The notes under the pieces are model-generated. The model saw only the letters and a list, made by a program, of their open reading frames with translations. It ran no database searches and had not been told where the DNA came from. DNA of 64,000 nt. It comes from Clytia hemisphaerica. Its lineage: Eukaryota; Cnidaria; Hydrozoa; Leptothecata; Clytiidae. Both the position numbers and the translations under genes were made by a program. Of the stretch, positions 30,951 to 62,408 are shown in pieces (position 1 is the first letter of the stretch; each line of letters begins with the position of its first letter). The stretch lies in contig CACVBU010000142.1 in assembly GCA_902728285.1 (NCBI GenBank), positions 434,001-498,000 on the forward strand. The letters are read 5' to 3'.

Positions 30951-32698
30951 TAATGTATACTTCTGAAAACTTTATAAGGCTTTTAAGCCCAAAAATGTAT
31001 GCATCTTGCTCGTTTTTTTTCCTTTCAATCAGTTGCTGTAGCTTTACCTCCCTGATAGCTCTCCTCTGTTATCGAAACCCTAAAATTCTTTCCTATCGGA
31101 AACATCTGAAAAAGCTTGTTCCTGAAAACACTGTACTTATGCTTGTCTTTACAAAAAGTTGGTCAACTTTCCAAGGGCAAAAATTTCGAAAAATATACCA
31201 CCAGACCACTTAAAAACACAGAAATCGCTAGATTCAATCCATCGAAAAAAATACCGCGCACTTGGATTTCAAAGTTTTCTTCCAACACGCTGAAAGTCGG
31301 GAAAATTTTCACCGGCGTCGCCATTCAACTACGAAATAGCGAGGTTAAGCAAAAGGCTATTTATGATGTGAAAATATGTATCTATACATAACCTGTAGAC
31401 ACCCACCTTATAAACCGGCCTGTTTTGTTGAGTCGAGAGTCGGCTTTTTTCAGGGTCCATGGCAAGGGTCAATTTGCATCAGCCATTTTACCTCCCTAGT
31501 AACTCGCCACTACTTTTTTTGCAGGTGAGGGTGGTGACGCCCCAGATTCCGCCCGGTCCAAACTGCGGGAATCTCCCTGTAGAGAAAATCTTAAGCAAAA
31601 GAATAAACGATAAAACCTGATCGACTGAGATTCCCCGAAAATGTAAACAAGAGACACAAATGGAGGAAAATGAAGAACTTGGCTGGGTCTACTTCTTTTC
31701 TTTTTTTTTTGTCATCTCTTTAATCACCAAAATTTGGTATAACAAAATAAATGTTAAATGCTAAGCATGTACATTTAAAATTTTTTCTTTTTTGATATTT
31801 CTTATAATATTTAATATAAAGTAGCTTTATCTGAAGTATGCGTATCAAAGACCTAACGAATCTTGGCGTTAATAAAGCATTCATAGATCAAAATGTCTTA
31901 TGCGAGATGAAATCCTGCAGAATACGAATACAAATTATTCAAATTACACAGACAAAATTTCAGCTTGATATCTTTGAAATGATGACGTTCAAATTGACGT
32001 CATAAATATTTTTACATATTGTATTTTATACGTTTTCATTTCATGAAGATTGGTGCTTGCACCAGAAACTCTGAGTTTGAAACAAAGATATGTACTCTTT
32101 ATTATAATATTATAGTCTCTCTGAATTCGGGCTTTGTTGAGGTGTGCAGGGATACATATATTTATATAGTTAATATATACTAATATGGGGGAGGGGGGAC
32201 ATAAGGGGGAACCAACAAAACGCCGCCCTCTATTACATGGGCGGTGTGTCGATCAAAATTATCGGTGGGAATCACTTCGAAGTCAAAAGAGAGAATTACA
32301 ATAAGCAAAACAAGTTGTGGGGGAATCCTCTGCAAAAATCAAACAAACAGACGAGAAGATCCATCCCATCCTACTGTTTGATAAAAGCGGCGGGATTTCT
32401 TTAGCTCCTTGATAAAAAGCGGCGGGATATTTCTTTAGCTCCTCAATAATTTGCTAAGTTGCTGCACAAAAGTTCATGACACAACTTTGCTGGCTGGTTT
32501 GATGAAGACACTCGACTCTTTCCTTACTTCCACCAGGGTGAGAGTTTTTTTTTGATTTTCAAATTTTATAGGTTTTATTGTTAAAAAGATAGCAGTAAGT
32601 GTAATACTTCACTTGCATCTATCAGTGAAAAGATAGCATAAGCTTGTCTGTGTTATATATCAGACAAGTAGCTACATACTCCCATCCCTTGAGGTTGC
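30951..32698. other. No supported gene; possible Helentron 5' flank
   Basis: Open frames at 30935-31391 carry no motif. A G-rich stretch (GGGGGAGGGGGGACATAAGG, about 32185) and a purine/pyrimidine tract precede the Helentron frames. No 5' terminus could be fixed. Confidence 0.4.
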
Positions 32699-32821
32699 AT
32701 GCGAGCTCCTCCTTGCATCCTCTTCCTTAACCTTCTTAACTTACTTAACCTACTTAACCAATTCAACCTACAAAACATACCACTTGATCTCAGAAACCTG
32801 CAAGCTATTAATTTAACAAAT

Positions 32822-33331
32822 ATGCCAACGTATCAAGTCTCAAAAGTTGTTTTAGGTTCATATAATCAAGCCAACGAAGAATTATTTGGCCGTACAGCTG
32901 GAACACAATGTAGCGCCAATTGTCTCTATGCTTTATTTTGGTCCCATTTCCGACGTGTTTCAATTTGGAAAGTTACAGACCTCGACAAAATTCTAATTGA
33001 AGGAGACAGGCTGTACAAACTCCTAGACACAAATACTCATTTATCTGTTGACGACATGCCGCGATTTATTGAGACAAATGGTATTATAACTCAAATTGAT
33101 TTTTTAAATTTAGAAGATGGTGAGGCTAAATTAATAGATGGCTATCCACTACTACAAATCCCATTCAGTGCATATCAAGCTCCAGAATTTAATGCGTTAA
33201 TGATTATTAATGGTTTTACTATAGCGATAATGAAGCGAAGACAAGTCTTTTTCATTTTTGACTCGCATAGCCGAAATGAACTAGGGCTACTTGATCCAGC
33301 AGGGAAATCCTGTCTGTTAAAATTTTTTTGA
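32822..33331 (+). CDS. Helentron N-terminal cysteine protease-like domain
   Basis: I prefer the ATG at 32822 because the earlier frame from 32699 is a Leu/Asn repeat. TAGTQCSANCLYALFWSHF (residues about 23-41) supplies a candidate catalytic Cys and FFIFDSHSRNELGL (about 143-156) a candidate His. The order C...H with a LSVDDMPRFIE block between fits the OTU/herpes-M48-like peptidases found at the N-terminus of animal Helitron-type proteins. The stop at 33331 follows a run of seven T (33323-33329). With one T fewer the frame would run on into the charged region. Probable deubiquitinase-like activity is an inference. Confidence 0.65.
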   Translation: MPTYQVSKVVLGSYNQANEELFGRTAGTQCSANCLYALFWSHFRRVSIWKVTDLDKILIEGDRLYKLLDTNTHLSVDDMPRFIETNGIITQIDFLNLEDGEAKLIDGYPLLQIPFSAYQAPEFNALMIINGFTIAIMKRRQVFFIFDSHSRNELGLLDPAGKSCLLKFF

Positions 33332-34832
33332 ACTTGAGAAGTATATCCAATATTTTTATCTAGAAGAAATGGAAAAAGAGAGTTCGTATTTCCAAATCTA
33401 ATTTATTCAAATCCATGAACTAAAAGAAGAGCTTAAAATTATTCTGCAACAAGACTTTTCAACATTTTCAAGGTATTGTACACGTAAGCGGAAAAACAAT
33501 TGTAATGATGGAAATGACATTACACAGCGTAAAAAGAAACGCCAGGAAAGCAACAAAAGTTATTATGAAAAGAACAAAGAAAAACTAATTGAAAACAATA
33601 AAATCTATCGTGCCCAAAACAAAGAAAAAATAAATGAAAAAGATAAAAATTACCGCACACAAAACAAAGAAAAAATAAATAATACTAATAAAAACTATCA
33701 TGCCAAAATGAAAGAAAAAATAAATAAAAAAGATACAGTCTATCATCAAAATAACAAAAGTAAGGTAGCTGATAGGAAGAAAGTTTACTATGAAAAAAAA
33801 ACTGTTAAGCATGACGATCTAGTTTCTAAATTTTTGAAAGTTATTTACGAAGGCCCTTTTTACATCTGTGTTTGTTGCAACAGATGTCTCTATCGACAAA
33901 CAGTTGTCAAATATTCACCTGAAAAGTATGATATGCCACAAGAATATTATTATTCTGAAGTTGTTTCATTTGATGGTCAATTATACATTTGCAAAACATG
34001 CCATAGCAAACTAAAAAAAAATGAGTTGCCAAGCCAATCTGTCAAAAATAAACTAAGCCTTGATGAATTACCCTCTGAATTTCATACTCTTCGCAGGCTT
34101 GAAAAAATTTTGATTTCTCGCAGAATTTTATTCAAAAAAATTGCAATCATGCCAAAAGGTCAGTTCCCCAAACTTAAAGGTTCTATTTGTAATGTACCTA
34201 TTGATGTTGAAGATATTGCTAATACTTTACCAAGAAGAGCAAATGACAATGGATTAGTTATTGTTAAACTCAAAAGGAAATTAGAATAAAAGGACATGTT
34301 GTTTTTGAGCCAATCAGACCTGATTTCATTCAGCGCATATTGAATTATCTCAAAGAGAACAACCCTCTTTATCAAGACATAGAAATTAATCTCAGTAATA
34401 TTTCAAATAATGAGACCATGATACATAATGGTGCAGATCTTAACGAGGAAGAAATTCTAATGAAATTACCCGCATGATGAAACTATTTCTAACGAGCATA
34501 GTAATGAATTTAATGGGTCACAAAATAATGCTTCAAGCTCAAATGAAGTTGAGACAACAGCTAACCCACTTGATGCTCACCGTTCAAGTGCAAATGAAAC
34601 AACTCTAATGTCAAACACTCCTACTGATGCTGAAGTTGATAATGAGATTTTAACATTAGCTCCTGGCCAAGGTAAAAAACCTGTTTCAATCTTGAATGAT
34701 GAAAATTGTGAGATGCTTGCTCATCCCCATTTATTTCCCAAAGGTAAATTTGGTTACAAAGTTGAGCGCGACATTAAACTAAGCCCGTCCAAGTACTTTA
34801 ACCAGCGTTTGTTGAACTATACACAAAACTGA
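33332..34832 (+). CDS. Helentron linker and zinc region (DUF6570-like)
   Basis: A charged repeat of four or five NKEKINxxNKxYxxxx-type units (33560-33760) leads to a Cys-rich block, YICVCCNRCLY and YICKTCHSKLKK, then LRRLEKILISRRILFKKIAIMP, which is the usual segment before the Rep domain in animal Helitrons. Breaks: TAA at 33399, a slip near 34280, a slip in CCC at 34469-34471 and a slip in the A-run at 34825-34828. The last part (from 34608) has AHPHLFPKGKFGY, a Helitron hallmark just before the Rep N-terminus. Confidence 0.65.
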
Positions 34833-36281
34833 CTACATATTTTTTGCTAACTTCGTAACTCAACAAGTCTCTTTGAGCAATCAAATAAATATTGCGATGA
34901 GAAAAGTTGCTTCCTCAAACTTAAATGCTGGTATGTTGAGTCAGAATTTTAAAGAAACAGTAAGACAATTTATTGCAAACGATAAGGCTTTTGCCTTTAT
35001 GAGCACAGTCAAAGGAACTCCAGCATATTGGAAAAAATTTCAGCAAGAAGTGTTAGCAATGGTGAAACAATTAGGACCACCAACTTTCTTTTACACTCTA
35101 AGTTGTGCAGACCTTAGATGGAATGAATTGATCTCCATAATTTACAAGCTCAAGGGTCAAAATGTGACTGATGAATTTATTGAGAATCTTTCTTACAACG
35201 AAAGATGTGAATTGTTAAATAGTAACCCTGTACTTGTAGCAAGGCATTTTCAATATAGAGTTGAATTATTTTTCAAAACAATTATTTTAAATGGTCCGCT
35301 TGGTAAAACAACTTATTATGCTATCCGAGTTGAATTTCAAGTACGTGGTAGCCCTCACATCCATTCCTTTCTATGGATTTTAAATGCACCAGTATTGACT
35401 TCAGAAACAAAAGTTGAATATATTCAATTTATTGATAAAATAATCAAGGTTTATCTACCATCTGAAGAAGAAGATCCTGATTTATTTAACCTTGTGAAGA
35501 CATATCAATTGCACCGTCATTCGAAAACCTGTCGAAAATATAAAAACACTCCTTGCAGATTTTATTTTGGTAAATTTTTCTCTGAGAAAACAATAGTTTC
35601 TGAGCCTTTGCCACAAGAATTACCACATGAGGAAAAAGAAACAATACTTGCTCTGCGAAAAGAAGTTTTGACTAAAGTAAGGACTTACATCAATGAGAAC
35701 CTTGCTCCAGATAAAAGAAACTTTTTCAACCCTGATGGAGAAAATTATAATCCAGTTCCCACTATAAATGAAGTCCTGGCTGAATTAGATATTCCAAAGG
35801 AGGATTATGAATATGCTCTCTCAGTGTCAGAAGATGATGATTTTCACATTTACTTAAAACGTAACACAAATGCATGCTTCGTGAATAATTACTTTACAGA
35901 AGGTCTTAAGGCTTGGCAGGCTAATTTAGATATCCAGCCAGTCTTCAATTATTACAAAGCTGCGACTTACATGTGTGCATATCTTTCAAAACTGAAGATG
36001 AAGTTTCTCATGCTATGACGCAAGCTGTTCAAGATGCATTTGAAAGTGGCGGTGACAAAATACGAACAAATGAAATCTGTTGCACATGCCTATGTTTCAA
36101 AACGAGAAGTGTCAGTGCAAGAAGCAGTTTATCTGAGTATGCCACAGTTATGGCTTCGAAAGCTTTATCCAGGTGTAACTTTTGCAAATACTAATGTCCC
36201 AGAAAAGAGATTTAGAATGTGTCTTAGTGAAGATGAAATTAGCCAGCTCCCTGAGGATAGTACATCGATTTTCAAAAAAAT
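34833..36281 (+). CDS. Helentron Rep (HUH endonuclease) domain
   Basis: FFYTLSCADLRWNELISIIY gives the first conserved block. VEFQVRGSPHIHSFLWI carries the HIH metal-binding pair, and YYKAATYMCAYLSK the tyrosine block, in the order of Helitron Rep proteins. The domain nicks and joins the transposing strand. The frame is open from 34873 to about 35990. Slips at the A-runs 35988-35991 and 36057-36060 then shift it through EDEVSHAMTQAVQDAF and EQMKSVAHAYVSKREVS, both typical of the Rep-helicase linker. A further slip in the A-run at 36274-36280 leads into the helicase frame. No catalytic residue is lost. Confidence 0.8.
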
Positions 36282-37967
36282 ATGTTGGACAGGTATTGTG
36301 ATAGACCAACAGATACAAATGGGCCTAACAAATCTGTTGCCAAAATGTGTTATGCTGAATTTTTGAGATTCTATAGTGTTGTCTATGAAGAATGCGATGA
36401 GAATGATTGTCAACCTAATGAACTTGAAGATGACTTGATAGAATCAAATCATCAATCAAATGACTACCCAAAGATTGTTAAACTTTGTTCAATGAAAGGT
36501 AAACTAAAGTGCCGCAAAGTTCCACTAGTCCTTCGTCTTCATCAACCCAACAGAAACAAGCACCCTGAAGATTACGCACACCACCTCCTAATGCTGTACT
36601 TACCGTTTTATGATGAAAATGAATTGCTGTCCCAAGAGCACAAGACTTACACTGCTAAGCTATTGGAACCTGGTGTTATTGAAAGGATTGAGAGGAACAG
36701 AGATTTGATCCAACCATATGCTGGCTTAGTAGATGATGCATTGGAAAGGTACAGAACTAATTTGATACTCAACATGAACGATTTTGAACAACAAGAAAAT
36801 GATGAAACAAATGCAGAACTTCAAAGAACAACAAACAATAACAATGAATCAGATGACGAAAATAACAATGACAGAGGTCATCTCAGAGCATCAATTCCAA
36901 TGGAATCAATTTTGCTGCCAGATAATGAAGTAAATGCACGTATAAGATCTCTAAACCAGCAACAAAGAGAAGTTTTTGATGTTATTCACAAATGGGGAAG
37001 AGATTATGTAAAAAACCTTTCTTCAAAAGTGCCTAGATGTATCGAGCCATTTCATATATTTTTAACCGGTGGCGGAGGCGTGGGAAAATCCCATTTACTC
37101 ACAACAATCTATCATTCTTTGTCAAAACTGCTAATGTACAGAGGAGGAGAACCAACAAAAGAAAGAATTCTAGTACTTGCACCAACTGGTGTAGCGGCAA
37201 TAAACGTGAACGGAACCACCATACACAGTGGTTTGATCATTCCTACAACAGATTTCTTTCCATTAAATGCTTCATCAAAAGAAAATTTACAAAAGAAACT
37301 TGCTTGTGTCGAAACTATTATGATTGATGAGATTTCCATGGTGCCTAGTCGTTTGTTCCTAAACATCGATGAAAGATTGCGCAGAATATTTAATGTTGAT
37401 CAACCTTTTGGTGGAAAGTCAGTCTTGCTATGTGGTGATTTATATCAACTGCCACCAGTTTTTAGAGATCTTATTTACAAATCAGATTGCTCCACAGTAC
37501 GCGGTATAGTTGGATTTGATGAATTATGGCGTAAATTCCAAATTGCTGAATTAACTGAGATAATGAGGCAACGCGATGATATAGATTTTATTGACCTCTT
37601 GAATCAAATTCGTTTAGGCGAACTAGATGAAGAAAAGGAGGAGCTTTTAAAATCTAGGTTCATTGCTAAAGACAATCCAGATTACCCTTCTGATACTACT
37701 CATATTTTTGCTGAAAACAAGCCAGTCGACGACTATAATATTTCCAAGCTCAATGAATTACCAACTGAAAAGCATTCGATTTTCGCACAAGATGAAGTTC
37801 CAAAGCACTTGACAAGCCAAGATCTGAAGTTTATTGAAAATGCTAAAGCAAGAGAAACTGGTGGCCTTGCCCGCATACTTGAAATGAAAGTAGGTGCCCG
37901 CATTTTAATCTCCAAAATATTGACATTACTGATCGACTGGTTAATGGTCAGGTTGGAACAGTCATGA
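36282..37967 (+). CDS. Helentron PIF1-like helicase, main part
   Basis: SF1 helicase motifs in order: Walker A FLTGGGGVGKSHLL (about residue 260), LVLAPTGVAAINV, Walker B TIMIDEISMV, CGDLYQLPPV, and AELTEIMRQRDD. The N-terminal part has RKVPLVLRLHQPNR and EDYAHHLLMLYLPF, typical for the region between Rep and helicase. The helicase unwinds the donor strand during rolling-circle transposition. The final 15 codons after VGARILIS are out of frame because of a slip in the A-run at 37914-37917. The real protein continues in the next frame. Confidence 0.85.
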   Translation: MLDRYCDRPTDTNGPNKSVAKMCYAEFLRFYSVVYEECDENDCQPNELEDDLIESNHQSNDYPKIVKLCSMKGKLKCRKVPLVLRLHQPNRNKHPEDYAHHLLMLYLPFYDENELLSQEHKTYTAKLLEPGVIERIERNRDLIQPYAGLVDDALERYRTNLILNMNDFEQQENDETNAELQRTTNNNNESDDENNNDRGHLRASIPMESILLPDNEVNARIRSLNQQQREVFDVIHKWGRDYVKNLSSKVPRCIEPFHIFLTGGGGVGKSHLLTTIYHSLSKLLMYRGGEPTKERILVLAPTGVAAINVNGTTIHSGLIIPTTDFFPLNASSKENLQKKLACVETIMIDEISMVPSRLFLNIDERLRRIFNVDQPFGGKSVLLCGDLYQLPPVFRDLIYKSDCSTVRGIVGFDELWRKFQIAELTEIMRQRDDIDFIDLLNQIRLGELDEEKEELLKSRFIAKDNPDYPSDTTHIFAENKPVDDYNISKLNELPTEKHSIFAQDEVPKHLTSQDLKFIENAKARETGGLARILEMKVGARILISKILTLLIDWLMVRLEQS

Positions 37968-39091
37968 GATTTAAATATGATTCCAGTAACATTTCAGGTG
38001 TCTATGTAAAACTTGATGATGTATCAGCAGGCAAAAAAGGATCCAATTTAGACCATGTGTGTAGAGAGAATGATTGGGTTTTGATTGAGAGGGCAGAAGC
38101 TACCTTTAACACAAAAAAAAAAGAAAAAAAGAAAAAGGAAAAACCTTTAATGGTTCGAAGGACTCAATTTCCACTGGTGTTATCCTATGCATGCACAAGC
38201 CATAAAGTCCAAGGACTAACACTACAATCAGCAGTAGTAAGCTTTGATTTGTTTAAACAGAGGTATTTCAATGAAGGTCAAATGTATGTAAGTTTGTCTA
38301 GAGTGACGAACATAAATGGATTATTTTTGATAGGTGAATACGATAAAAAAGCTATCCGTGCTAACAATGAGGCAGGAATCGAATATGAACGATTACGAAA
38401 AGATAATCCTTTGCATAAAGCTGAAAGATTTCCATCTGCTTTGAATTCGGGTAAACAATTACATATTTCACTTCTTAATATCCGCTCCTTGAAGAAACAT
38501 GTAACTGATCTGATGAAGTGTGAAACTCTAATGAACAGTGACTTAATATGCCTTACTGAAACACAATTGTCACCTTCAAGTGAGACAAATTATATTGATC
38601 AAACATTGGACAATTTCAATATTGAATACAATAATGATTCCATTAATCGTTTCCAAAACACTGCATGCTGTTATAATTCTTCAATTCAAATTTTAGAATG
38701 TCTTAGAGCAGCAGGCTACACATGTATTGAGTTTGTAAAGGAAACATTTAGTAGCAAACCTGTCAAGCTTCTACTATTGTACAAACCACCTGATTATTCA
38801 AGAAATACTTTTCGTGAAGAGTTGCTTGAGCTTATAACATATGATGATATAGATATTATTGTTGGAGATTTCAACATTGATGCGTTAGACCCTGCAAATG
38901 CCTATCTAGGTGAAGTACTTTCTTCATACGAAATGCTAGTAAAAGAACCAACTCATCTAGCAGGTGGTCTTCTTGATCATGTTTATTTGAAAAATAGCTT
39001 CATATATCAAAAAGAAGTCAAATGCTTTGTAAAGGACATATATTTTTCTGACCACGATGGAGTTTGTTTCACCATATCAAACGACTCTTAA
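37964..39091 (+). CDS. Helentron helicase C-terminus and EEP endonuclease
   Basis: Begins within the helicase (VGTVMRFK is in this frame) and has the last PIF1 motifs LSYACTSHKVQGLTL and GQMYVSLSRVTNINGL. From about residue 165 an endonuclease/exonuclease/phosphatase domain follows: LHISLLNIRSL, DLICLTETQL (catalytic Glu), VGDFNIDAL (Asp/Asn) and FSDHDGVCFTI (Asp/His). This domain is LINE/AP-endonuclease-like and is a marker of Helentrons. The catalytic set looks complete. A K/E-rich homopolymer tract (KKKEKKKKEK) lies at about residue 52. Confidence 0.85.
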   Translation: MRFKYDSSNISGVYVKLDDVSAGKKGSNLDHVCRENDWVLIERAEATFNTKKKEKKKKEKPLMVRRTQFPLVLSYACTSHKVQGLTLQSAVVSFDLFKQRYFNEGQMYVSLSRVTNINGLFLIGEYDKKAIRANNEAGIEYERLRKDNPLHKAERFPSALNSGKQLHISLLNIRSLKKHVTDLMKCETLMNSDLICLTETQLSPSSETNYIDQTLDNFNIEYNNDSINRFQNTACCYNSSIQILECLRAAGYTCIEFVKETFSSKPVKLLLLYKPPDYSRNTFREELLELITYDDIDIIVGDFNIDALDPANAYLGEVLSSYEMLVKEPTHLAGGLLDHVYLKNSFIYQKEVKCFVKDIYFSDHDGVCFTISNDS

Positions 39092-39935: not shown

Positions 39936-41720
39936 AGAAAGTTTATATAACTTTTCAAAAAATGAGCATTTAAATCTAATGTAATGTCTAGTAACAAAAA
40001 TAATGGACAAAAATGTATATATGCGAATAAATTTGGTGTTTTTAATGTTGGTAACCCATTGATTGTTCATTGTTGTTTTAGTGGTTGTTGTTTTAGTGGT
40101 TGGTGTTTGTTATATCGAAAAGTTCTGGCTTTGTATCGTTTGATCTTGGTATACCGTCATGTTCTTGTTTGGTAATTTCCTTTAGTAAAATATACTCATT
40201 CATTTCATTTATCATGGATTGGTCGTATAAATCATTGGTTCGTTTCTGGACACCTGCATTCAATAAAGAAAATACAATGAGTAATTGGTAAGTAAAAGTT
40301 CATTTTTGATCCATTAATTAAGATAGGATGAAAAACAGTTGTTCAAACTTTCAGATTTTAAATTCATAGAGTTTTTTACAGAGAAATCTTTTTACAAACT
40401 TTGCCATCAATCACTGTGTGGATGATGAGTTTCAAAGAACTCGAAATGATCTTGTGCATATTATTATATACTGTACCTGTATACCAACGACTTTAATTTC
40501 TACATTGTTTTTGTTGCAGATATCCTACACATCCATCAGTAACCAAGCATCGGAATTCTCCATACACGACGAAGATTGCTTCCCTCTAACATAACACCGT
40601 CAATAATTTGAAAGTCGACCCTACAAAATTCAAAACAAGGTATTTTAAGTCTCAATATAAATGACCTACACGTTTTTTTATTTATAAGCATATCCAGATT
40701 CAAATCTTGGAAAAACTTAAGCATTGCCTAATGTTGAGCCTCATTTTACAAAAAAGCATGCATAATATGCAAAATTAAGCATATTTGAGGCTCATGAAAT
40801 GCATTTTGCTAAACATAATGAGGCTCACAAAAATTTTTAAAAGAACGTGTATATTAAAAGTTTAAATAATGATTAATTTAACTTTTGATTGATGATTAAT
40901 GCGATGTCGAAAGTCTACTGCAATAAATTCAACTCTTTCATACATTAGAGAAAAAAAATACCATAAACTGGTGGTTTCCTCTTTTTTTCTACAGAAATTC
41001 TATCCAGGACAATATATTTGGAAAATTTTGGCGCTGCTGTTTCGTTAGTATGCTGTCGACTGTACTACCCACGTTAAAGTTATGCAAAGTATTCTTTATC
41101 GTAGACGTTTTACAATTAAATTGACCGATGTATCTTTCGAAGCTTCGTCGTGTTCGTTAGTGGAGAAAGGTCATATTATTCTCATATTGTTTTGCCGACC
41201 ATCCAACCTATCATGTTTAAACTAATGTAATTTGTCTCGCTATTCTAAATTTTGCTGTTGGGATTAAAATGAGATTGGTAGTAGCCAAGAAAGATAGACT
41301 AAATTTAATTAAATATTAAATAATTAACTAAATTTATATTTCAGCTAGATCTAAATTATTAATTTCTTGCAAAAATTCATTATACATCTATTGGGAATTT
41401 TATTACTATTTACTAAAGATGACCATTGTCTAAAATAACATTGATCGAACTTTTGTTAAGAATTGAAATTGTTTCACATTAATCTCCCTTTAAAGCTCGT
41501 TAATCGACCCTTGTGTTACAAAATTTTGAAATCAATTTTCACGTTCTTACGATCCTTAACATCCCAGAGAGACTACTTTTGCGAAATTTCAATTGTTTTC
41601 GTAACCCTTTGAGATCATTTCGACGGTCTACATAACCACCCATTTTGCCTACCCCCGCCTCGTTTAATGACGTTAATATTTTCATTGCATTCTCTTTAGC
41701 TACTCTTTCTTATGTCTTTA
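39936..41720. other. No supported gene between Helentron and helicase transposon
   Basis: AT-rich sequence. The frames at 39984-40291 and 40536 have no motif. Repeated GAGGCTCA/AGCAT motifs at about 40730-40840 (GAGCCTCATTTTA, TTTGAGGCTCATGAAATGCA, AATGAGGCTCAC) form short inverted pairs. Confidence 0.4.
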
Positions 41721-41729
41721 CCTTATGGG

Positions 41730-41792
41730 TAGCCAGGAAACCCTCAGCCCTCGCGAGCCAGCGAAGCTGGCGAGGGCCGGGTATCACCCAAA
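41730..41792 (+). repeat. Left TIR, 63 bp
   Basis: Starts TAGCCAGGAAACCCTC and ends GTATCACCCAAA. Contains an internal GC-rich hairpin (GCCAGC GAA GCTGGC within CCCTC...GAGGG) that is unusual in this AT-rich window. 41793-42038 is leader for the helicase, with no other feature. Confidence 0.95.
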
Positions 41793-42038
41793 GTCGGTTG
41801 CAGGCAAAAAAGTGCTGCACAAACTGATTGGCCGAAATAGAGACCGAGTTTTGACTGAAACAATAACAAACCAAAACACACTTTACAATCGGGATTTCAC
41901 GAAAGAGCGAAGCCGTGTTCTTTTTCTCTAAAGTTTTTAACTCTTTACCGTTCAGTTTTATTTTTAAAGTAAGTGCGGCCTTATATCATCGTCTAGAATT
42001 ACAAGTACTAATATATGCAGATTCAGATCAAAACAAAT

Positions 42039-43752
42039 ATGGCTGATGAACGTGAAGATGTCATTGGAAAGAGTATTAAGAAAATCTTGGGAAAGATTGA
42101 TATTTGTTTAAAGCTTCAACAATCAAGAGCTGTTCGAAATATTGTTGCAGAAAAAGATACTTTATGTGTTTTACCTTGTGGTTATGGAAAAAGTTTAATT
42201 TTTCAAATTCTGCCTGCACTTCTTACTGAACTTGGACATCGCTCAAATCCCTTAGTTATCATTGCTGTTCCTCTGAAGTCCCTCATAGAAAGTCATCTTA
42301 AATCAGCCTTAAAATTTGCGTTGCTTGGAATCAAAGCTACTTGTTTAAGCAATGAAAATTACAATGACATTGCATCTAGCAAGTACAATTTGATATTTGG
42401 CTGTCCAGAGTTATGGTTGAAGAAACAGTGGAGAGAGCTTTTGTCTACAAAGTATTTCGGAAAAATTTAGTTTGTTTTGTTCTGGATGAAGCTCACAATG
42501 TCACATGGGGTAGGGCTGACAAGAAGTCCAAAGTACCTTTTAGGAAAGCCTTTGGAGAGATTTCTGTGATACGTTCATGTTGCCGTCCAGGGACACCTAT
42601 GTTAGCTCTAAGCGCGACAGTTAACGTTGATTTGACGGAAATGATCAAAGAAAGTTGCAATCTTTCTCGCAATTTCGCAAATTCATCTGTGATGAAAATA
42701 ATGTCAGCCACCTAAAACAGTCTGTGATAAAAATTAAAGGCAAAACAATTGAACCCTTACGATGGTTGATTCAACTCCTTATTGATCAAAAGTCAAACTG
42801 TCCCAAAACAATAATTTTTTGTCGCACCATTGAGCTAGCAGGTTGGATGTACGAAAGAATGAAAAATATTTTAAAACTACATGTACCAAATTGGCAAAAC
42901 TTAATAGGGATGTACCATAGTGAAACCCTTCCGCACAAAAAGAAGAGAGTTCTGGATTCGCTGATCGATCCCCATGATGCTGTTCGAATCACAGTTGCAA
43001 CTAGCGCATTGGGATGTGGTGTAGATGCTAAGGACGTGACAAATGTTATTCATTTCGGACCAGCATACAGTCTTGTTGACTACTGTCAGCAGGTAGGAAG
43101 AGCTGGTAGAAGTCATCAAGTTCCTCCACCTCAAGCACATGCAATTTTGTATGACTACAGTGGTCAACGTCCAGACATAGGTGAAGATATGAAAGAATAT
43201 TTAAAAAGCACATCTTGTCTAAGAGTGAGACTTTACAGTGATTTTAGTGCTGTTGAAGTAAAACCTCATTCAAAATTGCATTTGTGTTGTTCATATTGTG
43301 CCAAATTGTGCCAGTGCAAGTCATGTGAGTTGTTCCTGTATGAGGAAAGTCATGAAAATGGTACTTCAGCAGAGAAGATTGCTGTGCGCGAGGTCTCGGA
43401 AATTCAAGAGGTTAATATGAGAGAAAAACTTTCATTACTTCACGAAAGCATTGTTGATAATTTTGTATCATTTTCACCAGCTAAACTTGTTTCTGGTTTA
43501 ACTGATCAAACAGTTGATGAAATTATTGACAACCTAGCATTTATCAATTCAATCGATACTCTCCAATCACTCACAACAGTTGTCGATTTTTCATTAAGCG
43601 TAAAAGTTATTTCTCTTCTGTGTGAGTTCTTCAAAGACTTTGAATTTTTAGATGCCTTATATTCGTCGGAAGAATTAGAATATAACATGGCTTTTTCTGA
43701 CTCAGAGCATGAGCTCTCTGATAATAGTGATATTGAGCCAGACTCTGACTAA
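42039..43752 (+). CDS. RecQ-like SF2 DNA helicase of the transposon
   Basis: Starts MADEREDVIGKSIKKIL (ATG 42039; an earlier in-frame ATG at 42015 is possible). Motifs in order: LKLQQSRAVRNI; VLPCGYGKSLIFQ (Walker A); FVLDEAHNVTWGR (DEAH); MLALSATV; TIIFCRTIELAGWMYERM; MYHSETLPHKKK; ITVATSALGCGVDAKDVTNV; LVDYCQQVGRAGRS. A Cys cluster after the core (HLCCSYCAKLCQCKSC) resembles the zinc site of RecQ proteins. The acidic tail (DSEHELSDNSDIEPDSD) ends at 43752. The frame changes at the A-run 42461-42465 and again near 42672 (CTCGCAATTTCGC), the latter not in a homopolymer. All catalytic motifs are present. It probably assists excision or repair of the element; that role is an inference. Confidence 0.8.
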
Positions 43753-44318
43753 TGGTCCTAATAATTTTGCACTACCAATTAACTATGTATTTACAGATTT
43801 TTAACATTTTTTAATTTGTTTTTGCTTTATAGCCTCTTAGATTTTTTTATTTTCATCAAAATATGTACATTTTCTTAATGTTTGGGAATAAGACCAGAAG
43901 TTCTTTTTTATAAAGCTTGACTCAGTCTTTAAGTACTTAATTTACTAGATAAAATTTTGCAAGAATTGAATTGAACAGTTTCTGTAGATTTAGCTATAAA
44001 TTGATGTTTGAAACTTTTCTTTTTTTAGTGGTCAGAGAGGAAAACATGTTTTTTCAATCAGTGATTCTAACATTTCTACTCTTCCCATCTCTAATAAAGG
44101 GTGTCGGAAATTATGTAACAGACTGAATTTTTGGTACATGTTATACTTTAAAATAGATGTATTTTGCTATTAGCTAATATTCTCCAAAAATTCCTCAAAA
44201 TATGAAATAAAAATTAAAAAAGGTCAAATAAAAAAGGTCAAGAAAATAAAATAATAAAATAAAATAAAAGTTGTATACAGTAAGATAGATGCAGTTAAAC
44301 ATTATGCATTTATGGAAA
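43753..44318. other. Convergent 3' regions of the two transposon genes
   Basis: 566 bp between the two stop codons. AT-rich with several AATAAA-like sites (for example 44207, 44245-44270), consistent with opposed polyadenylation. A run of AAAATAAAATAATAAAATA is at 44244-44270. Confidence 0.5.
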
Positions 44319-47300
44319 TTAATTATATAAAACCTCAAATTCTCTTTTCTTTTTTGCTAGCCATGATACAAAGTTTCCTTTGTCCATTTTGTTCAGTAAA
44401 TTTTCCTGAAATTCAGGGTAAGATTCATAACTTCTCTTGGGTATATTGCCCCAAATGTTGATATTATCATACTCAACAGCTAATCTGATAACATCCTTGC
44501 TAAAATCTCCTCTTCGAGCAGATCTGTAAATTGAGGCGATCCCATAGTTCTTTTCTAGGTTTTCGATTAAGTACTTGGTATTGTTTACTGCTTTTGATTT
44601 CCTATCAGCATTTTTCTCACTCAGATTTCCTCTTAATGACCCAAGAAGTTCTTTTAGAAAATGATTCAGGTGCTCGAGATGAAGATCGAGGGATATATTT
44701 CTTCCTTTGATACCGGTTGTATTGATAAATCTGCCCCAAATCAACCTAAAAGCATGGCTTGGTTGTAATTTCATTCTATAGATCATTTTCAAGATTGAGT
44801 AGGAATATTTGTTTCTCCCAAAACATTTATAGAATAGAAGTGCATATTTGTAACAATTCAGCAACCTTTCTCCATCGCCCTCTCTTATGCTGTCGTTTAT
44901 GTTTCGTAGCATTATGTTGTACGTCAGGAGTGCTTTATGATAACTTTGAATGCAGTCTTTGTTTCCATTATATTGTGAAGTGTAGGTTACAGTAAATCTG
45001 AAAAAAAATTGATATCTGTTCAGTTCTTCGTTTAACTAAAACTTTTTAAGGTGGAATGGAAAAGAATCTTGAACACATAAATGTTTATTTATATCTTTAC
45101 ATGTTATTGACAAAATAAGAAAGATTATTAAATTTCTTTCCACAAATAACTGAATAAATCGAACCTCCTTATTATGCATCTCACTTGGTCATAAATCCAC
45201 TCTGATTTGACGTCACCGCTGCTACTAATCGAAATATCAGCAGGTATAGGGTTATCTAGAAATATAAAATGATTTTTATAACTTTAAATTTAGTCTTTCT
45301 ATTTATAAAACCTGGGAATATTTTAAATTACAGTCTTTTTATTTATGAAACCTGAGAATATGTTTGAAATTATTTTCATTTTGTACCAGTATTTGAAATT
45401 AATCATGTACTCTGAATGGATGTGTATCTCATTTTATTTAACCTAGACCAATTAAAAAGAAACTAATTTTGATTTTTATAAGGTTTACCTTCAATTTTGG
45501 TCATATTGAAGTATTTCATTGCACACGATGTCACTTGTGCATCTAACTCAACATCAGTAAAATCTTTATAGTGATTGAATGCTTTGTCTGGGCCAGGTTT
45601 TGCGTTCGTTTTGTGTAAAAAGTTTAAAGCCCACGCCGTCGTACCAGCTTCATTTCCAGAGCCTTTATCACGAAACACACCATCCTTCACCTAGTAATAC
45701 AAGATACAAATTTCTGACATTTTTAAATACTTATTTATCATATGTCTGATTAAAATATTTCTGTTTTTAGAATTTTTTTTAGATAGTATGTATGTTAGAG
45801 AGTAGTTTTTTTACCTCGTAAAGACATTTTTTAGCATGCCAATCTTCAAACTTAGGGGACAATCCTTTCAATTTTTCCAAATCATTTTCTCCATCTAGGC
45901 GTGCTTTCTGAGAGTTGACTGCTCTCTCCTCTGTTAACTGGTCGCCTCCAAATGGGATGTCAACAAACGTGTCACATAAGCCTTTCTCGTCTTTTTCACT
46001 TTTGGGGACATAATTTTCTTGCAGATTTTCTAATATCTGGATCATTTCGGATGTCTTCGTTTCGCATTTGAATAGCAATCCAAGTGATTCCTAAAATTAA
46101 AGTTGATTATATTAGATTACATTTAAAAAAACGGCATTTTAGACCAAGTAGAACTAATTTCAGGAGATGTAATTAATAGATTTATTTTTAATTTGCTTGT
46201 CTAGATTTCAATCGGGGATAAAGAAATGTATTCTTAATTTAAAGTATCAAGTATTACTTACAACTTCAGATTTCTTTGACATCTCCTTCGTAAAAGCGTG
46301 TTCTATGTGCTTTTGGAAACACTTTTTGAAAATATCAAATGCAGGAAGGTATTTCACGATTATTCTTCCAAAGAGAATCGTGTAATCATCGAACAAGGCC
46401 TTTTGTGTTTTTGGACCTGGGAGCACGTCCATTTGCTTGTAGTAATCTGCCGTACGAAGATCTAAAATACGTAAAACAATTCCTATTATTTTGGGTATTT
46501 ATATCAATATAGCCACAATTTATTTCAGAAAATCATCCTAATATGTCTACCATCTTTATTTAACGTTTGTAACACGCCAATACCTGGCATATTTTATATT
46601 GGTAAAAATAGTATAATTACTATAGTTTCTTTACCTTGAGAAGAGTGAACTCTTTCCAAAACTGCCATTGTATGAAACCAATGTTTACTGTCATTTTTGT
46701 TTTCCTTGTCTTGGTGTCTTGAATGTTGTGAAATGTCCAAGTTGTCCCCAACGAGCTGCAAAAAGATAATCCTTTTTAAATTCAGAGAAAACATTTTTAA
46801 TAATCGAAATAACTCACAGTCATAAATAAACATTTTAAAGGATTCAAATATTTCCATTAAATCAACTAATCTTTATACACGTTAAAAAATATTTCGAACC
46901 TGAAATTCTAGCACCTTCCGAGTCTTAAGTTCTGCTAAAAGCTCTTCTTTGGTAATGCCAGGTTTCTCTTGTATTATTTGCTTACATGCGTCTTCGATCT
47001 CCTTTTTCCATTTTAAAACCTTTTCGTCATGATTTTTAGCCATTTGTTTGTGCTTTCGATTTGCTGTTGAGTACGAATTTGTCACTGCGAAACAGTTAAG
47101 CCATTTGAAAACTTTCTTTTTTGCACCTGCGAATGAACAAACAAACGGTCCCTATGTTACTAAAGTTTCCGAAAAATCGTCCTGCACTGCATATGAATTT
47201 TTATTCGAACAATTTTGTATGATGAGTGAGCCTCGAGAACACCATAAAATATAAGCAATTTGAAAAGGTAGCCATCCGACTTTATTCTTAAGTAAAATTT

Positions 47301-48354
47301 TAGGCATGAGTAGCATTGATATAGGATATTAAAGTTTAAAGTATACTCAGCAGGGTGCCAACAAAAAATTCCTTTAGTTCCTACTATCACCTTTAAAACT
47401 GAAATACCTGCAGCGACTAGGAGCTGGTCCATTCTATGAGTTATAACGCAAGCACGACTCCCAGAATATCTTGACTTGTATAAAATTCCAACTACTGTTA
47501 AGAGAGCTCCAATTAAATGTGCTTTTTTTTCTCCAACTGCTCCCTTTAAAGCCGCAACCAGAACAGGACAGCACTTCTCGATTTCACGAAATAGCTTCTT
47601 GTCATCTAAATTAATCAATGATTTCACATCTGTATTATTGATACTTGATTTTGATTCCAATGATCCGACTTCTGCTTCGCAAAAATCTGATATGTATTTG
47701 TAGTCTCCTGCACTCTTTGCACTCTGTGTAAAAAGAAAATTTTACTGCTACGTAAATTTAATTTTCATTGGGTCTGAGAGACAGGGGTGTGATACCCCTT
47801 TTTCTCAGAATAAAAAGGATATTTTTGCTGAACTTCGAAGTAATTTTTTTTTCAGCCCTTACCTTTGATTCAAACTAATTCGAGTATTACAAAAAATTGT
47901 AAAAATACATACTGTATTATCAGGATCAACATGTTTATTTGGTATCATACTGTTAGTGTCTTCACTGGACTCTTCCACTTTTTCTTTTTTCCTCTATTTC
48001 TTCACCTCTTTTATTACTTCCTCGGGCAGTGTCGTTTTCTAATTGTCGCTTTCGCTGTACAGTTTTATTTATCAACTCAACACTCAGGTCCCATTTGTCC
48101 AAAATTTCAAAAGCGGCTTTAATTCTTTTTATCCCAGAACCACAGTTCCTGCAGATACTGTCTGATTTACCGCCTTCTTTTGTGATTTCAACACCAATGT
48201 CTTTTAACAACAGTTGAGGAATCCCGTCTAGCTTTTTCTGGTAGCTAAACAAATTACATCGATTGTCGGATCGAGCCTTGTATGGCTCCTTGCACAAACG
48301 ACAGGCCATCTCAAAAGAAGAATTTAGAATCTTCGTACGCGTGCCATATATCAT
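44319..48354 (-). CDS. DUF6589-family transposase, copy 2 (near intact)
   Basis: Nine minus-strand exons with GT-AG borders and matching phases: 48354-47913, 47723-47408, 47126-46900, 46755-46635, 46461-46262, 46090-45815, 45690-45489, 45255-45165 and 44997-44319. Exon 1 has a CRLC...CNLF...ICRNCGSG zinc module. Exon 4 has LVGDNLD and HWFHTM (first acidic residue). Exon 6 has FGGDQLTEERAVN (second) and FEDWHAKK (third). Exon 9 has REGDGERLLNCYKYA and GRNISLDLHLEHLNHFLK, hallmarks of DUF6589. I infer an RNase H-fold DDE/D transposase of about 800 residues. The only lesion is one base in an A-run (47985-47990, T-run on +) near the end of exon 1. The frame after it (EKVEESSEDTNSMIPNK) leads to a donor that fits exon 2. 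Confidence 0.85.
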
Positions 48355-49346
48355 TTTGTTTTTTATCTAATTAGCCAATATTTGTCTTAAATAGCTTAAA
48401 TAGACGCCTTCTCTTTAAACATCATTTTATATTTAAGAACATTCTGAGGCATCCGTCGTCATTTTGTTTTATTTTGTTTCGACTTTTTTCTTCAGAACTT
48501 CAGGAGAATAATCAGCCTGCACTTATCAGGAATCAAAAGGGTATCATCAACACCATTTTTTTGGTCTAGAATGAGACAACTGCTTACAAAGCCACTTAAA
48601 GGTTTAGTAGGTAAAAGCCAACACCCATTAATGCTTATAAAAAGAGTTAGCTCTTCGTTATTTTTTCATGCTTGAATAACTTATCTTCATTCCTTTTTAG
48701 AACTCTCTCTTTTTATGTCCCAAACACACGGCCATATTAGATATGTCTGGTGATTTCTTCAAGAAAGGCAGGATGTTTAGTTCAGATATTTCGCTATGTG
48801 AAAAGCAAGCCTTATTTCTATCAATGGTCAAACTTAAGCAAGAGATTTTTGCTTAAGAAAGGGTAATAAACCAATGAGTGTCTTTAGATCTGCCTTCGTT
48901 GATATGAACAAGCAGTTGTAAACACAGACAAGAAAGATGGTAGAGCTTGCAGCGGGGATAGAGAGAACTTTTCTGTTAGAGGGAGCACGAACATTTTGTT
49001 ATGAAGATTACTTTTCGGTTATTTATTGGTGCTTTACATGTGAAATTTTCGATTTAGATAAAATTTAGTTCAACACTGCTTATAGGTGAAAGTTATATCT
49101 TTGAATGGAATACAATGTGTTCATTTTTATGCTATATATTGATATTTAAAAACTCAATTTATGTTTTGTGAACTGTTGTAAAAAGTTTGTATATGATTGA
49201 GCCCATTTAGTTCTATAGCTATGCCTACCATTTTTATTTACATTAATTATTCAACTAAATATGTTAAATTATGCAGCCAACCGCGAATTTTCAAAACACG
49301 AGAAGTGAAAAAAAACGTTTCAAGACTCTCGACGATTCTCGGTCCA
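48355..49346. other. Leader between transposase start and right TIR
   Basis: About 1 kb without frames of note; it must contain the transposase promoter. No recognisable core promoter. Confidence 0.4.
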
Positions 49347-49409
49347 TTTGGGTGATACCCGGCCCTCGCCAGCTTCGCTGGCTCGCGAGGGCTGAGGGTT
49401 TCCTGGCTA
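49347..49409 (-). repeat. Right TIR, 63 bp
   Basis: Exact reverse complement of 41730-41792. Followed by the duplicated target CCTTATGGG at 49410-49418. Confidence 0.95.
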
Positions 49410-49418
49410 CCTTATGGG

Positions 49419-50930
49419 CTGACCTTCCAGCGCAGCTGGTTTATTTAAAGCCTTAATATCAAATCAATCAATGGAGTTTGTTTTTCTTCTAGCACTAAGA
49501 TACCAAATAGTTCGAACCGAGCTGTCTTTCATACCACTGTAAGTCCAGTTAGTGTGATTTTTGTGTAATTCTTGTTAGAAATTTAGATGGATTCCCTAAA
49601 AAGATTTTTAGGCGAGTTTATAAAATTTGAATGTCAAAAAGACACTTCTAGACACTAAGGGCATTGGATTAATTATAGAGGAATGGAACCAATATGAACC
49701 AGGTCGGCCATAATTGCTAAAATTAGAAAAATAGAAATTAGCACTATTTTTGCTATTTTTTTTCTTTTTGCAATATGAAATATCTTTTGTTGGTATCATT
49801 TTAGTCTTTAAAACTTCGGGAATGCATGGTTGCAGATTGCAATGCAATGTTGGCTTGGAAAATGCAACGAGGATGTATATAAGGAAAGCACACCTCTAAC
49901 CTATATGTTTATTTTAAGCAGGAAGTGATCTTTAAGAGAGATAAGAGGGATACAATTTCATTAGAAGGGTGAGAAGGGTTTAAAAAATCAAGCAGAAATT
50001 GCAATTAACGGTGCATTTTGATTTTATCAAATTTTACTATTTTGACCAGCCCGGTGCACACTAGTACCAGACTCCAAAATTACCTGAATCGTGAAAAGTC
50101 ATTTCTGAGTACAATGTAGAAATGTCTATTTTAAGGCTTAATATTACATTAATTCTCAGAAAAAACAAGGCTTTTGAAAAAAAACAATGATTTTCGGAAT
50201 CAGCACCCGCAAAAAGTTTAGAATCAACCCCACTCGTCCAAGAAAAACCGTTATTACACCCCCTCCCTTCTAAACTTAGCTTTACTTCTTATTTATTTTG
50301 TAGGTAATCTAGATCTTTCTTTTGACCTTCATATTGATATGTGATTGGAAATTAAAGTCTGTCTCGTTATAATTGACAGTGGAAACAAAAGACGCTGTCA
50401 CCTTTGAAAGAATTTAAATTACATTTTGTGCTTTTGTGCTCGTGGAAAAGATATTCGTGAGAGGAGTATTATCAAATAATAATGCAAAGTTTATTGCTGG
50501 TTGACGCTAAAAAGTATCAAAAACAGCAAAAAGTAGCCTTTTTAAAAATAAACTAAAAAATTTTTCCATATCTTTTGACTGAATGAATACTTTGTTTTTC
50601 ACAATGAGACAGACTTTAAATAGTGGTCACACTAGGGCGTCAATAAAGTTTTTTTGCGGATCATTTTTAATTTATTTTTCGAGCCTCGTATTGTATTGAC
50701 GATAGATTAGAAATTAACGAGTAGTCAGCCTAGATTTAACTTTTTATTTTATTTAGATTTATCTTTTGAGCTTAGTATTGAAAATTGATTGAAAATTTAT
50801 AAGTATTACACTAGGTTTTATCTTTAATGTTTCTTGCAGAGATTATTCTTTTGAGCTTGATACCTTTAGGGAAAAAATTTCGTGGGATGAAATTCTGCTC
50901 GCGGCCTTTAACTACGCGTTTCAGACCTTA
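49419..50930. other. No supported gene
   Basis: AT-rich sequence; the frame at 49608-49847 (-) is chance. Reads as repeat-poor spacer. Confidence 0.4.
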
Positions 50931-57781: not shown

Positions 57782-58998
57782 AATTTCTGACATACATAAG
57801 GTAAATGTTTACCTCTCGAAACCGTGTTTGTTAATTTCATGCTTGTCTCTGCCAGTTTTGGTTTTGTAAAGTTAGAGTTTCTTGAAGTCAATGCGATCAC
57901 ACATTGAACATAAATAAAATTTTAATTTCATAATTACGTTGTCCTCTTTTTCATTTCTGTCTGCTTTGAGCTCCATCTCGTACATGACTGTGAATCTGAT
58001 TTGGTAATCAAAATTAAAATAATATTAGTAATTATGGAAACGGGGACTAGTCTTCACTGTACTCTCAAAAAAGGAAATCATGCAATATATAGTTATCCTA
58101 AAGTTTGGTTTGAAACATTTATCTAACATGTGTAATATTTTTTTACTAACCTTTTGAAAATTTCTTCCACGTTCCTTTGTAACCAGTGATATTTTATTTT
58201 GTTCGAACCATTTTTGATGTCATCTGGAATGATGTCGTCTAAAGAAGGAAAGAACAATTTCAAAAAACTATTGAAATCTTAAGTCCTCGAGTGTTTTAAT
58301 AACATAACATGAATCATCCATCAATTTTATTTGTCTTGAAATGGGTCATCGCAGCAATAACAATTAATGTGTCGGTTTCGATGTCACTGAATTCTTTAAA
58401 GGCGTTAAAGTCTTCTGTTACTCCCTTTTTGGCATTGGTGTTATGAGTTACATTCATGGACCATTCTGTCGTGCCGTGCTGTGCACCTGAATCTCGTCGG
58501 CGAAATATTGTCTCTTTAACCTATTCAAATGAATATTACTGATTGTATTCGATTATTATTTTCCAGATTTTTTAAAACGTTTTTGGGAACTTTAAACATT
58601 ATATTATGTTTTAGAGTTTTCTATTTATATAGAAGAATTTATGTTTTGGACTTTGTTATTGTAAGTAATGCACTCGATATAGGTTACCTCGTATAGCGTG
58701 CGTTTTAAATGCCAATCCTCGTATGCTGGTTTTAAACCTTGAAGCATTTCGTATGCGTTCCTGCAATCGACAAACCCCTGTTGTGCGTTGATCACCCTTT
58801 CTTCAGTCTTTCTTTCCGAACAGTAAAGGTTTGATGACTTCTTTTATAACTTCCCCATCACTTGTTTTATCCTCCGTCATTGGAATATAGCTTTCCTGGA
58901 TCTCTTTAATGATCTGAATTATTTCAGTTGTAGAGTTTTCGGCGTGGAAAGACAAACCTAGAGGAACCTGAATCGAAAAAGGAATATATATAATTTTC

Positions 58999-60617
58999 AC
59001 AAAGTCAAAATTCTTGAGTAATTACAATAAGTTTTGGGTGCTTCAAAATTGCAATCCTGTTTTGGAGTCCTTAAACCGTATCAATAAAAAGAAGAATGCT
59101 AAGTCTATTTCCACCTTTGACTTCAGTACTCTTTACACAAAGATCCCTCATGACAAACTTATTATTAAAGAATTGGCAGAGGTTATTGACTTTGTTTTTG
59201 ATGCAGGTAGTTCGAAATATATTGCCATCTCCCAGAACGACAAAGCTTACTGGTCGTCTACTTTAATGGGATAAATTTTCGCGGGGATTAAATTTCGCGG
59301 TTGAGCTCATCCGCGAAATTTTAACATTTCGCGGGGATTAATTTTTGCGGATGAGGGATTTCCTGATTTTTCGCGGGGATTTAATTTCGCGGATTGGGGT
59401 ACAAATTACAATTTTCGAAAAGGGTCAAAACATTGAAATAAAATTTTTCCAGGAAAATTAAGAATTTTTTTTTCAAGTAATAAGAGGGTGTTTTGGAATA
59501 GGGCGAGGAGACATGCCTCCTTTTCTTACATACCTTTTTAAATGTTTAATTTCAAGCCAGTTGGATTACCCTCTTGCATTGAAAAGCTTTTAACAATAAG
59601 CGATCACTTTAGATAAAATTTTTCCAATACCTCTTCCAAGTTTGTAAATTTGTGAAGAAAATTTTGAGGAAAACGATTTTTTGCTAACAAGCATATCGAG
59701 GATTTGACCTTTTTCGAGGGTTGCGTGCCCTCATGTAGAAAAAAAATAAAAAACGATAAAAATAGAAATTTCGCAAATTGCAAAAAAAATTCCAATATTT
59801 CGCGGAAACTAATTTTCGCGGATGGGCCTTTTTCAAATTTCCAATGGAACTTATTTTCGCGGATGACACCCAAATCCGCGAAATCCGCGAAAATTAATCC
59901 CCGCGAAAATTTATCCCATTAAAGTATTTCCTTTTCAAAAAGTTCTTTGAAAACCGCTGTCAAACATCTGATTAAAAATTGTTTTTTCAAAGCTGGCAAT
60001 GTTGTCATGTGTCAGGTCATAGGTATCCCAATGGGCATCGATCCAGTGCCATTTTGGGCTAACTTATTTTTATATCAATACGAACATAGATATATGACCC
60101 AGTTGATTGAACAAGATAAAGTGAAGGCTCGTCATTTTCATTCAACCAAACGATTCATTGATGATCTCTGTGCTGTAAACGATGGGAACATGTTCGAATC
60201 AGTATATAGAGAAATCTATCCAGATGAACTTGAGCTCAAAGTTGAGCACTCAGGATCTCATGCTTCGTTCCTTAACCTTGACATTTCCATCAAAGACGGG
60301 GTTTTTGTTTACAAGTTGTTTGACAATAGCGATGCCTTCCCTTTTTCTATTGTTCGTATGCATCACATTGACAGTAATATGCCAGAATCCATTTTTATTC
60401 TTCGTTTGTTGGTGAGTTTTTGAGAAAAGCTCGATCCACTCTTTTATTTGAAGACTTGAGAGACAAATCTCACATATTTATTCAAAGAATGCGTGCCCAA
60501 GGCGCTACAGTTGGTAAACACAATATTAGTCTGCGTAGAGTCATTACACGTCACAGTTCTGAATTTTCAAGGTTTCAACTCAGTTTAAATGCAGTCGTTC
60601 ACCAGCTTTTGCGGTGA
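58999..60617 (+). pseudogene. Penelope-like reverse transcriptase, copy B
   Basis: 5'-truncated. Starts within NKFWVLQNCNPVLESLNRIN (copy A KFWVVQNSSLVIEHLNRIN) and has STFDFSTLYTKIPHDKL (motif A). It is split by a 668-bp MITE, then VIGIPMGIDPVPFWANLFLY (motif B), RFIDDLCAVND (motif C), KVEHSGSHASFLNLDISI, and after one frame change at about 60415 RKARSTLLFEDLRDKSHIF to a stop at 60617. Lies inside a former intron of DUF6589 copy 3. The C-terminus is longer than in copy A. Confidence 0.7.
59259..59926. mobile_element. MITE, 668 bp, perfect TIRs
   Basis: Ends TACTTTAATGGGATAAATTT(TCGCGGGG) and the exact inverse at the right, at least 28 bp, bounded by TA. The interior carries many TTTCGCGG(GGATTAA) repeats in both orientations and overlapping minus-strand frames without motif. 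Inserted in the RT frame of Penelope-like copy B between AYWS and KTAVKHLIKN. Confidence 0.9.
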
Positions 60618-61375
60618 GCGGCCACGGGGATACGAGGCATCGAACCGGGCTATCACCCAACTTTTCAAAAAATTCTTATGTTTTTTTCCATCCTTTCAAT
60701 CTTCTTCTCCCTTGTCATAGATAGTGGCAGTCTTTTTCAACTGTTTTTTCTTTATCTTCGAATGTATTATCTGCAACGTTAGTGGCAGAACGGGTCAAAG
60801 ATGTGGCAACTTTGTCCAGTGGGTAGTACTTCTCTGGCTAGTTTTTGGTATCATCGGCAGGTCCGTAGGTTTTATGTTTGAGTTTGTTTTTGTACTTTTG
60901 CGCGCGTTTTAATAATTCAAAGAAATACATTTATTTTTACGACCTCATCTGTGGTGATGCCTGATCAACATTGCTAACCTACATTACCCTGTTTATATCA
61001 TTTGGGAGGATATTTTCGAAAATGGCCGAAATCCTATGTAGGTTGAAAACTGAAGAACATAGTTTGTGTTTTCTTTGAGTCACTTTTACTTTTTTTCACA
61101 TTGAGTTGCTTCTTTCCTTTTGGTCGATTTAGATCATGATGTGCATTTTTGCTTTTGAGACACTTCCGAAGAATACACCAATGTCCCATTTCTGTTTTTC
61201 TGCTCCATCAGAATTACGTACAAATAGTTTAGATCTTTTGTCATCATTTGATATCACATACCTGGTTTCATTTTATGAATATTCATCCTGAGCATGTTGT
61301 GTTGTTGTGTCCTCTTGTTGGTATTGTTTTGTCTCTTTTTGTTTATTACATTTTTTGAATAGTTGAAGGTCAGCC
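60618..61375 (+). repeat. Penelope-like 3' sequence and repeated 5' unit
   Basis: 60620-60900 matches the 3' region of copy A. 61030-61370 is a diverged copy of 54875-55170: GTAGGTTGAAAACTGAAGAA against GTAGGTCGAAAACTGAGGAA, then CATTGAGTTGCTTCTTTCC, and AGTTGAAGGT at the end. So an upstream segment of copy A is found downstream of copy B. This fits the tandem, pseudo-LTR organisation known for Penelope-like elements, or a larger repeated host unit. Confidence 0.55.
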
Positions 61376-62297: not shown

Positions 62298-62408
62298 TAC
62301 TCTTCTGTGCGAAATTGTAGGGGGTGTTCCCCCCATTTTTTAGATTTTTTTCAGAACATCCACCTTCCCCTGCTTATTCGACCCCCCCCAATTACGCACA
62401 GAAGAGTA
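62298..62408. mobile_element. Small MITE, 111 bp
   Basis: TACTCTTCTGTGCGAAATTG at the left and CAATTACGCACAGAAGAGTA at the right are inverted repeats of about 20 bp with one indel. GGGGGTGTTCCCCCC and CCCCCCC lie inside. Lies in an intron of DUF6589 copy 3. Confidence 0.7.

Follow-up and report, generated by a model that had tools for sequence, protein, structure and literature searches.

Positions 41730-49409 of a 64,000-nucleotide stretch of the Clytia hemisphaerica genome (hereafter, the window) are occupied by a DNA transposon of 7,680 bp, which carries between its terminal inverted repeats (TIRs) a gene for a RecQ-like superfamily 2 (SF2) helicase and a gene for a DUF6589 protein. We are highly confident that it is a copy of an AcademH-type transposon, in which the DUF6589 protein would most likely be the transposase, with the helicase as its probable dedicated partner. 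The finding places a Pfam family of unknown function on a mobile element for which the ends, the target duplications and the empty sites are defined. More than 24 two-gene loci exist in this genome, among them several families with open helicase frames, and they offer a means of testing how a helicase contributes to cut-and-paste transposition.

Ends, Target Site and Insertion as One Unit

The limits of the element are the following:

41721..41729, no strand: left target-site duplication (TSD), CCTTATGGG, of which three empty target paralogues carry a single copy each
41730..41792, + strand: left TIR of 63 bp, TAGCCAGG..., its end position set by other copies
49347..49409, - strand: right TIR of 63 bp, identical to the left one
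49410..49418, no strand: right TSD, CCTTATGGG

Both the TIRs, identical over their full 63 bp (41730-41792 against 49347-49409), and the perfect 9-bp duplication on the two sides had been pointed out in a first-pass annotation of this DNA, and both stand. Owing to complementary bases next to the ends, the window alone admits TSD/TIR lengths of 9/63, 7/64 or 5/65, and pairing extends to 65 bp when two bases of each flank are included. The other copies settle the matter in favor of 9/63: 19 of the 31 TIR matches in the genome start exactly at TAGCC (the other 12, among them the window's own two ends, start earlier), and exact 9-bp TSDs, different in sequence from copy to copy, flank 8 of 10 paired copies (the window copy, L009, L010, L011, L013, L014, L015 and L024). 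This count covers the window copy and 9 of 20 fetched stretches; the TSD of L012 has one mismatch, and that of L018, which may be mispaired, has five. Within the window the 20-base terminus occurs at just two sites, both of them element ends (expected, 0.00), and the left TIR is predicted to form a hairpin as a single strand (z -3.73).

When the two flanks are joined, three other genomic sites match contiguously over the first 96-97 of the 131 bases, and weaker repeat copies match as well (at least 40 matches, among the matches listed). The three empty paralogues (L046-L048) are 98-99% identical through the junction over 327-328 bases and contain CCTTATGGG once each, from which it follows that the element was inserted as one unit. 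The first-pass annotation had held that the two genes entered together, and this is borne out by the empty targets, by a second full copy and by the convergent pairing described below. The host sequence is a dispersed repeat (41430-41729 and 49419-49446) with at least three close copies, in which the element lies 27-28 bp before the shared repeat end.

The DUF6589 Gene and Its Predicted Catalytic Residues

The two genes are arranged as follows, the eight introns of the DUF6589 gene having been set by hand at frame-keeping GT..AG sites:

42015..43752, + strand: RecQ-like SF2 helicase gene with DEAD and Helicase_C domains; two frameshifts, near 42.45 and 42.68 kb
47913..48354, - strand: exon 1 of the DUF6589 gene (putative transposase), with ZAD-like Cys pairs (weak match) and one frameshift in the window copy
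47408..47723, - strand: exon 2
46900..47126, - strand: exon 3
46635..46755, - strand: exon 4, containing GDN, with the predicted first catalytic Asp
46262..46461, - strand: exon 5
45815..46090, - strand: exon 6, containing GGDQLT (predicted second Asp) and EDWH
45489..45690, - strand: exon 7
45165..45255, - strand: exon 8
44319..44997, - strand: exon 9 and stop, containing EGDGER and HLEHLN (predicted catalytic Glu), without a zinc finger before EGDG

The - strand gene, read earlier as nine exons with GDN, GDQLT, DWH, EGDGxR and HLEHLN blocks, was recovered in that form from 48354 to 44319 and matches PF20231 (DUF6589) with an E-value of 8.1e-37. Its best full-length relative is another C. hemisphaerica protein, P0031 (35% identity over 98%). 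A ZAD domain is weakly matched by Pfam at the N-terminus of both proteins, below the curated cut-off in each case (E 0.055 in the window protein, 0.0013 in P0031), and is present in the database annotation of the relative P0034.

In an alignment with six relatives (A5), both Asp residues are invariant in six of six, and the Glu is present in all five that reach its position. Of the loci linked to a helicase, 7 cover the first Asp and all 7 have it; the second Asp is conserved in 9 of 9, as is the Glu. The fungal protein P0041 shows by eye YDN, GGDQL and QEHNN at the predicted acid blocks. The first Asp stands at residues 317, 305 and 176 of P0031, P0033 and P0035, where the Pfam match starts at 371, 359 and 230, respectively; as it lies 54 residues ahead of the match in all three, the Pfam model omits it. 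The EDWH motif that follows the second Asp resembles the C/DxxH signature which PMC10045372 places between the second D and the last E in hAT, Kolobok, P, MuDR and Dada, a likeness that is suggestive only.

All six A5 relatives have a C..C..H..H finger that follows the second Asp and precedes the EGDG block. It is lacking in the window copy and in L009, where even a sensitive search gave no sign of it. These two are not alone in this: among the seven two-gene loci discussed below, the corresponding stretch of P0031 is matched in four (L029, L030, L034 and L035), and no match to it was found in the other three (L032, L033 and L036).

By elimination, and from the conserved D, D and E, the DUF6589 protein is most likely a DDD/E transposase, as had been proposed, and its identification as the transposase of an Academ element appears sound, if not certain.

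Two further DUF6589 loci exist in the window, both decayed and on the - strand (57-63 kb and 14-17 kb); each has lost one of the two Asp residues, the first or the second, and a search for the Glu found it at neither. One of them, at 14047-17334, includes a zinc finger, matches best the Porites protein P0033 and encloses a 175-bp inverted repeat (15287-15461/16015-16189); no helicase was found near it in the window. The other, at 57812-63014, consists of pieces 48-82% identical to P0031, with stops and an interruption of about 3 kb, and holds a + strand frame (59923-60423) that looks reverse transcriptase-like by eye and has no Pfam match.

The Helicase Gene

A + strand gene with full SF2/RecQ motifs had been read in the first-pass annotation. 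DEAD and Helicase_C domains were indeed found; the gene is readable only across three frames, and hence carries two frameshifts. Its best match in the PDB is WRN (E 2.7e-18), and the reading joined across the two frameshifts scores 132.7 bits against TIGR00614 (recQ_fam), under the cut-off of 219.8. A scan of ten reading frames of the element matched no nuclease family.

Genome-Wide Linkage of the Two Genes

The genome searched comprises 951 contigs with a total of 417 Mb. A search for the helicase yielded 83 matches (75 of 426 candidates scored), reduced to 70 once 13 extra pieces of the same loci were dropped; the DUF6589 search, with P0031 as query, gave 90 matches (50 of 849 candidates scored), 35 of which, to the last exon, were used. 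The pairing counts that follow are lower bounds, drawn from the matches listed. A helicase lies within 6 kb of 25 of the 35 DUF6589 last exons, where 0.07 pairs would be expected at random, and the two are convergent in 25 out of 25 pairs; the window copy and L009 both belong to this set. Counted from the helicase side, with 38 DUF6589 places used, 28 of the 70 helicase matches have DUF6589 within 6 kb.

The eight best other helicase loci (L029-L036), 36-40% identical to the window helicase, all have open helicase frames of 574-612 amino acids, as can be expected of top-ranked matches. A convergent DUF6589 gene is present by sequence at seven of these eight, four of which are among the 25 pairs. 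Purifying selection acts on the helicase in related families, with ratios of nonsynonymous to synonymous rates (dN/dS) of 0.06 and 0.07 for the pairs L029/L034 and L035/L036, at a dS above 2, i.e., near saturation. The DUF6589 last exon beside the L029 helicase is 100% identical over 222 amino acids to the Clytia protein P0032, and that of P0031 matches C748 (99% over 237 amino acids), which marks the host as C. hemisphaerica or a very close relative.

State of the Copies

Another copy with the same termini and both genes, which the first-pass annotation had led one to expect, is L009, of 7,544 bp, flanked by its own exact 9-bp TSD. The window copy differs from it by 99 substitutions in 7,501 aligned bases (98.7% identical where aligned), and L009 also differs in length within both genes. 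Exon 1 is in frame in L009 and L019, so that, with respect to these two, only the window copy has the frameshift there. L009, in turn, shows three stops among 820 compared transposase codons and four within the helicase match. Between the window copy and L009 there are 6 synonymous and 9 nonsynonymous changes in 567 helicase codons (dN/dS 0.40), and 18 and 20, respectively, in the transposase (dN/dS 0.28), small counts that would fit a period of selection preceding the decay of both copies. The window copy had been judged young enough to be active: it is young, with 1.3% substitutions over those 7,501 bases, and it is broken, since with two frameshifts in the helicase and one in exon 1 it is probably not autonomous.

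Related Families and a Helicase-Only Element

Two other families have complete ends. At C500:40302-48353, an element of 8,052 bp carries both genes, a TIR beginning TAGTTTAGG... and an exact 9-bp TSD, GGGTGGATG; at C315:65609-73226, one of 7,618 bp carries both genes, a TIR beginning TAGCCTGGG... and an exact 9-bp TSD, GCTCCAACC. The latter is enclosed by an outer pair of inverted repeats, TGTTTCAGTCG, with AAAAATTTT on both sides (C315:65312-73511; L032, L042 and L043), an arrangement that is perhaps a nested insertion.

On C674, a helicase-only element of 2,240 bp (L031:312-2551) has TIRs of the C500 family, an exact 9-bp TSD, CCCTCTTAC, and an open helicase frame of 587 amino acids. Over 2,125 bp it shares 98.8% identity with one end of the C500 two-gene element, and so it looks like an internal deletion derivative mobilized by a transposase in trans. 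Comparison of its helicase with that of L030 gives a dN/dS of 0.37, from 9.5 synonymous changes and 13.5 nonsynonymous ones.

Proposed Mechanism and Alternatives

In the mechanism that we favor, the DUF6589 protein would bind the TIRs, perhaps via its N-terminal ZAD-like zinc domain, excise the element and insert it into target DNA at cuts staggered by 9 bp, from which the 9-bp duplication would arise. The helicase, whose gene lies tail to tail with that of the transposase, would most likely be a dedicated partner acting on a DNA intermediate, its candidate steps being the opening of the ends or of the target, or the resolution of the gap or donor site. The first-pass annotation had also proposed this partnership.

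Several observations weigh against this reading. An RNase H fold was not found for the DUF6589 protein in two AlphaFold models of poor quality, with mean predicted local distance difference test (pLDDT) values of 67.0 and 68.7, mostly below 50 around the predicted acids, and fold searches with them were empty; no Pfam transposase family was matched at E-values up to 10. In the first 145 helicase codons, compared between the window copy and L009, there is 1 synonymous change as against 5 nonsynonymous ones, and thus no sign of constraint in that part. Among the matches listed, 10 of the 35 DUF6589 last exons are without a nearby helicase and 42 of the 70 helicase matches without a nearby DUF6589, although at least 3 of these 42 do have DUF6589 by sequence, and one (C674) is the helicase-only element. 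Ends were not found at C75, C430 and C54, three of the five related loci with both flanks fetched. Finally, the likeness to AcademH is drawn from descriptions, and not from reference sequences of Academ transposases.

It is improbable, though the strongest of the alternatives, that the helicase is itself the mobilizing enzyme, in a Helitron-like or other helicase-driven manner, and DUF6589 an accessory or captured gene. The C674 element, with its TIRs, exact TSD and open helicase frame, would fit such a scheme, but its near-identity to the end of a two-gene element gives it the look of a deletion derivative, and small copies that lack both genes, such as L013, L014 and L015, are also flanked by exact 9-bp TSDs. 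Moreover, the combination of TIRs and staggered TSDs typically points to DDD/E enzymes and not to rolling-circle elements. Less probable still is a KolobokH type, i.e., a helicase-bearing Kolobok, since Kolobok elements create TTAA duplications and the present one has varied 9-bp TSDs; the suggestion comes from PMC10799480, in which DEAD and Helicase_C appear among the domains of AcademH, KolobokH or Helitron, the first two being named next to each other. That the genes are neighbors by chance or nested insertions, and do not move together, could be imagined in a repeat-rich window with two more decayed DUF6589 loci, and is made extremely improbable by the second full copy, the empty sites and the 25 convergent pairs out of 25.

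Within the reading of DUF6589 as transposase, a broader proposal can be put forward tentatively, with slightly less than an even chance in our estimation: PF20231 would be a truncated view of a DDD/E core with its first Asp ahead of the Pfam boundary, many eukaryotic DUF6589 “genes” would be transposases, and the helicase would be favored in cis or selected for itself, given that the helicase-only deletion derivative has moved with its frame still open.

Other Features of the Window

A Helitron-type element occupies 32693-39091 (+ strand), with matches to Herpes_teg_N, DUF6570, Helitron_like_N and PIF1 helicase and, below threshold, to an endonuclease. A frame of 334 amino acids at 9419-10423 (+ strand) contains an OTU cysteine protease domain (E 1.3e-15), and at 12953-13891 a unit of about 168 bp is repeated in tandem, in six copies.

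Comparison With Known Systems

The helicase core is common to the window protein and to the RecQ family (WRN, RECQ5, BLM); its score below the TIGR00614 cut-off makes it RecQ-like and not a standard RecQ. As for the element, an AcademH lineage of the Academ superfamily was reportedly described by Kojima in 2020 (Mob DNA 11:15), and since AcademH has been in print from that year the pairing of a helicase with a transposase is itself not new. Academ is one of 17 DDE/D superfamilies according to PMC10294476, and PMC10045372 gives TSDs of 9 or 10 bp for AcademH and of 3 or 4 bp for AcademX, in relation to helicase and nuclease. AcademX, of the same superfamily by name, was considered for the element and rejected, its TSD being of 9 bp and not 3 or 4 and the nuclease not having been seen in the frames scanned.

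With AcademH, in contrast, the element has in common an SF2 helicase with DEAD and Helicase_C, located inside both full copies, a 9-bp TSD and an animal host, AcademH being a lineage of animals and fungi. From the helicase and the TSD, set against the published descriptions, we have good confidence that it represents a new AcademH family, with features that may be its own: a nine-exon DUF6589 gene for the putative transposase, a ZAD-like start and the lack of a finger before the last block. The Clytia genome clearly shows the two genes traveling as one unit.

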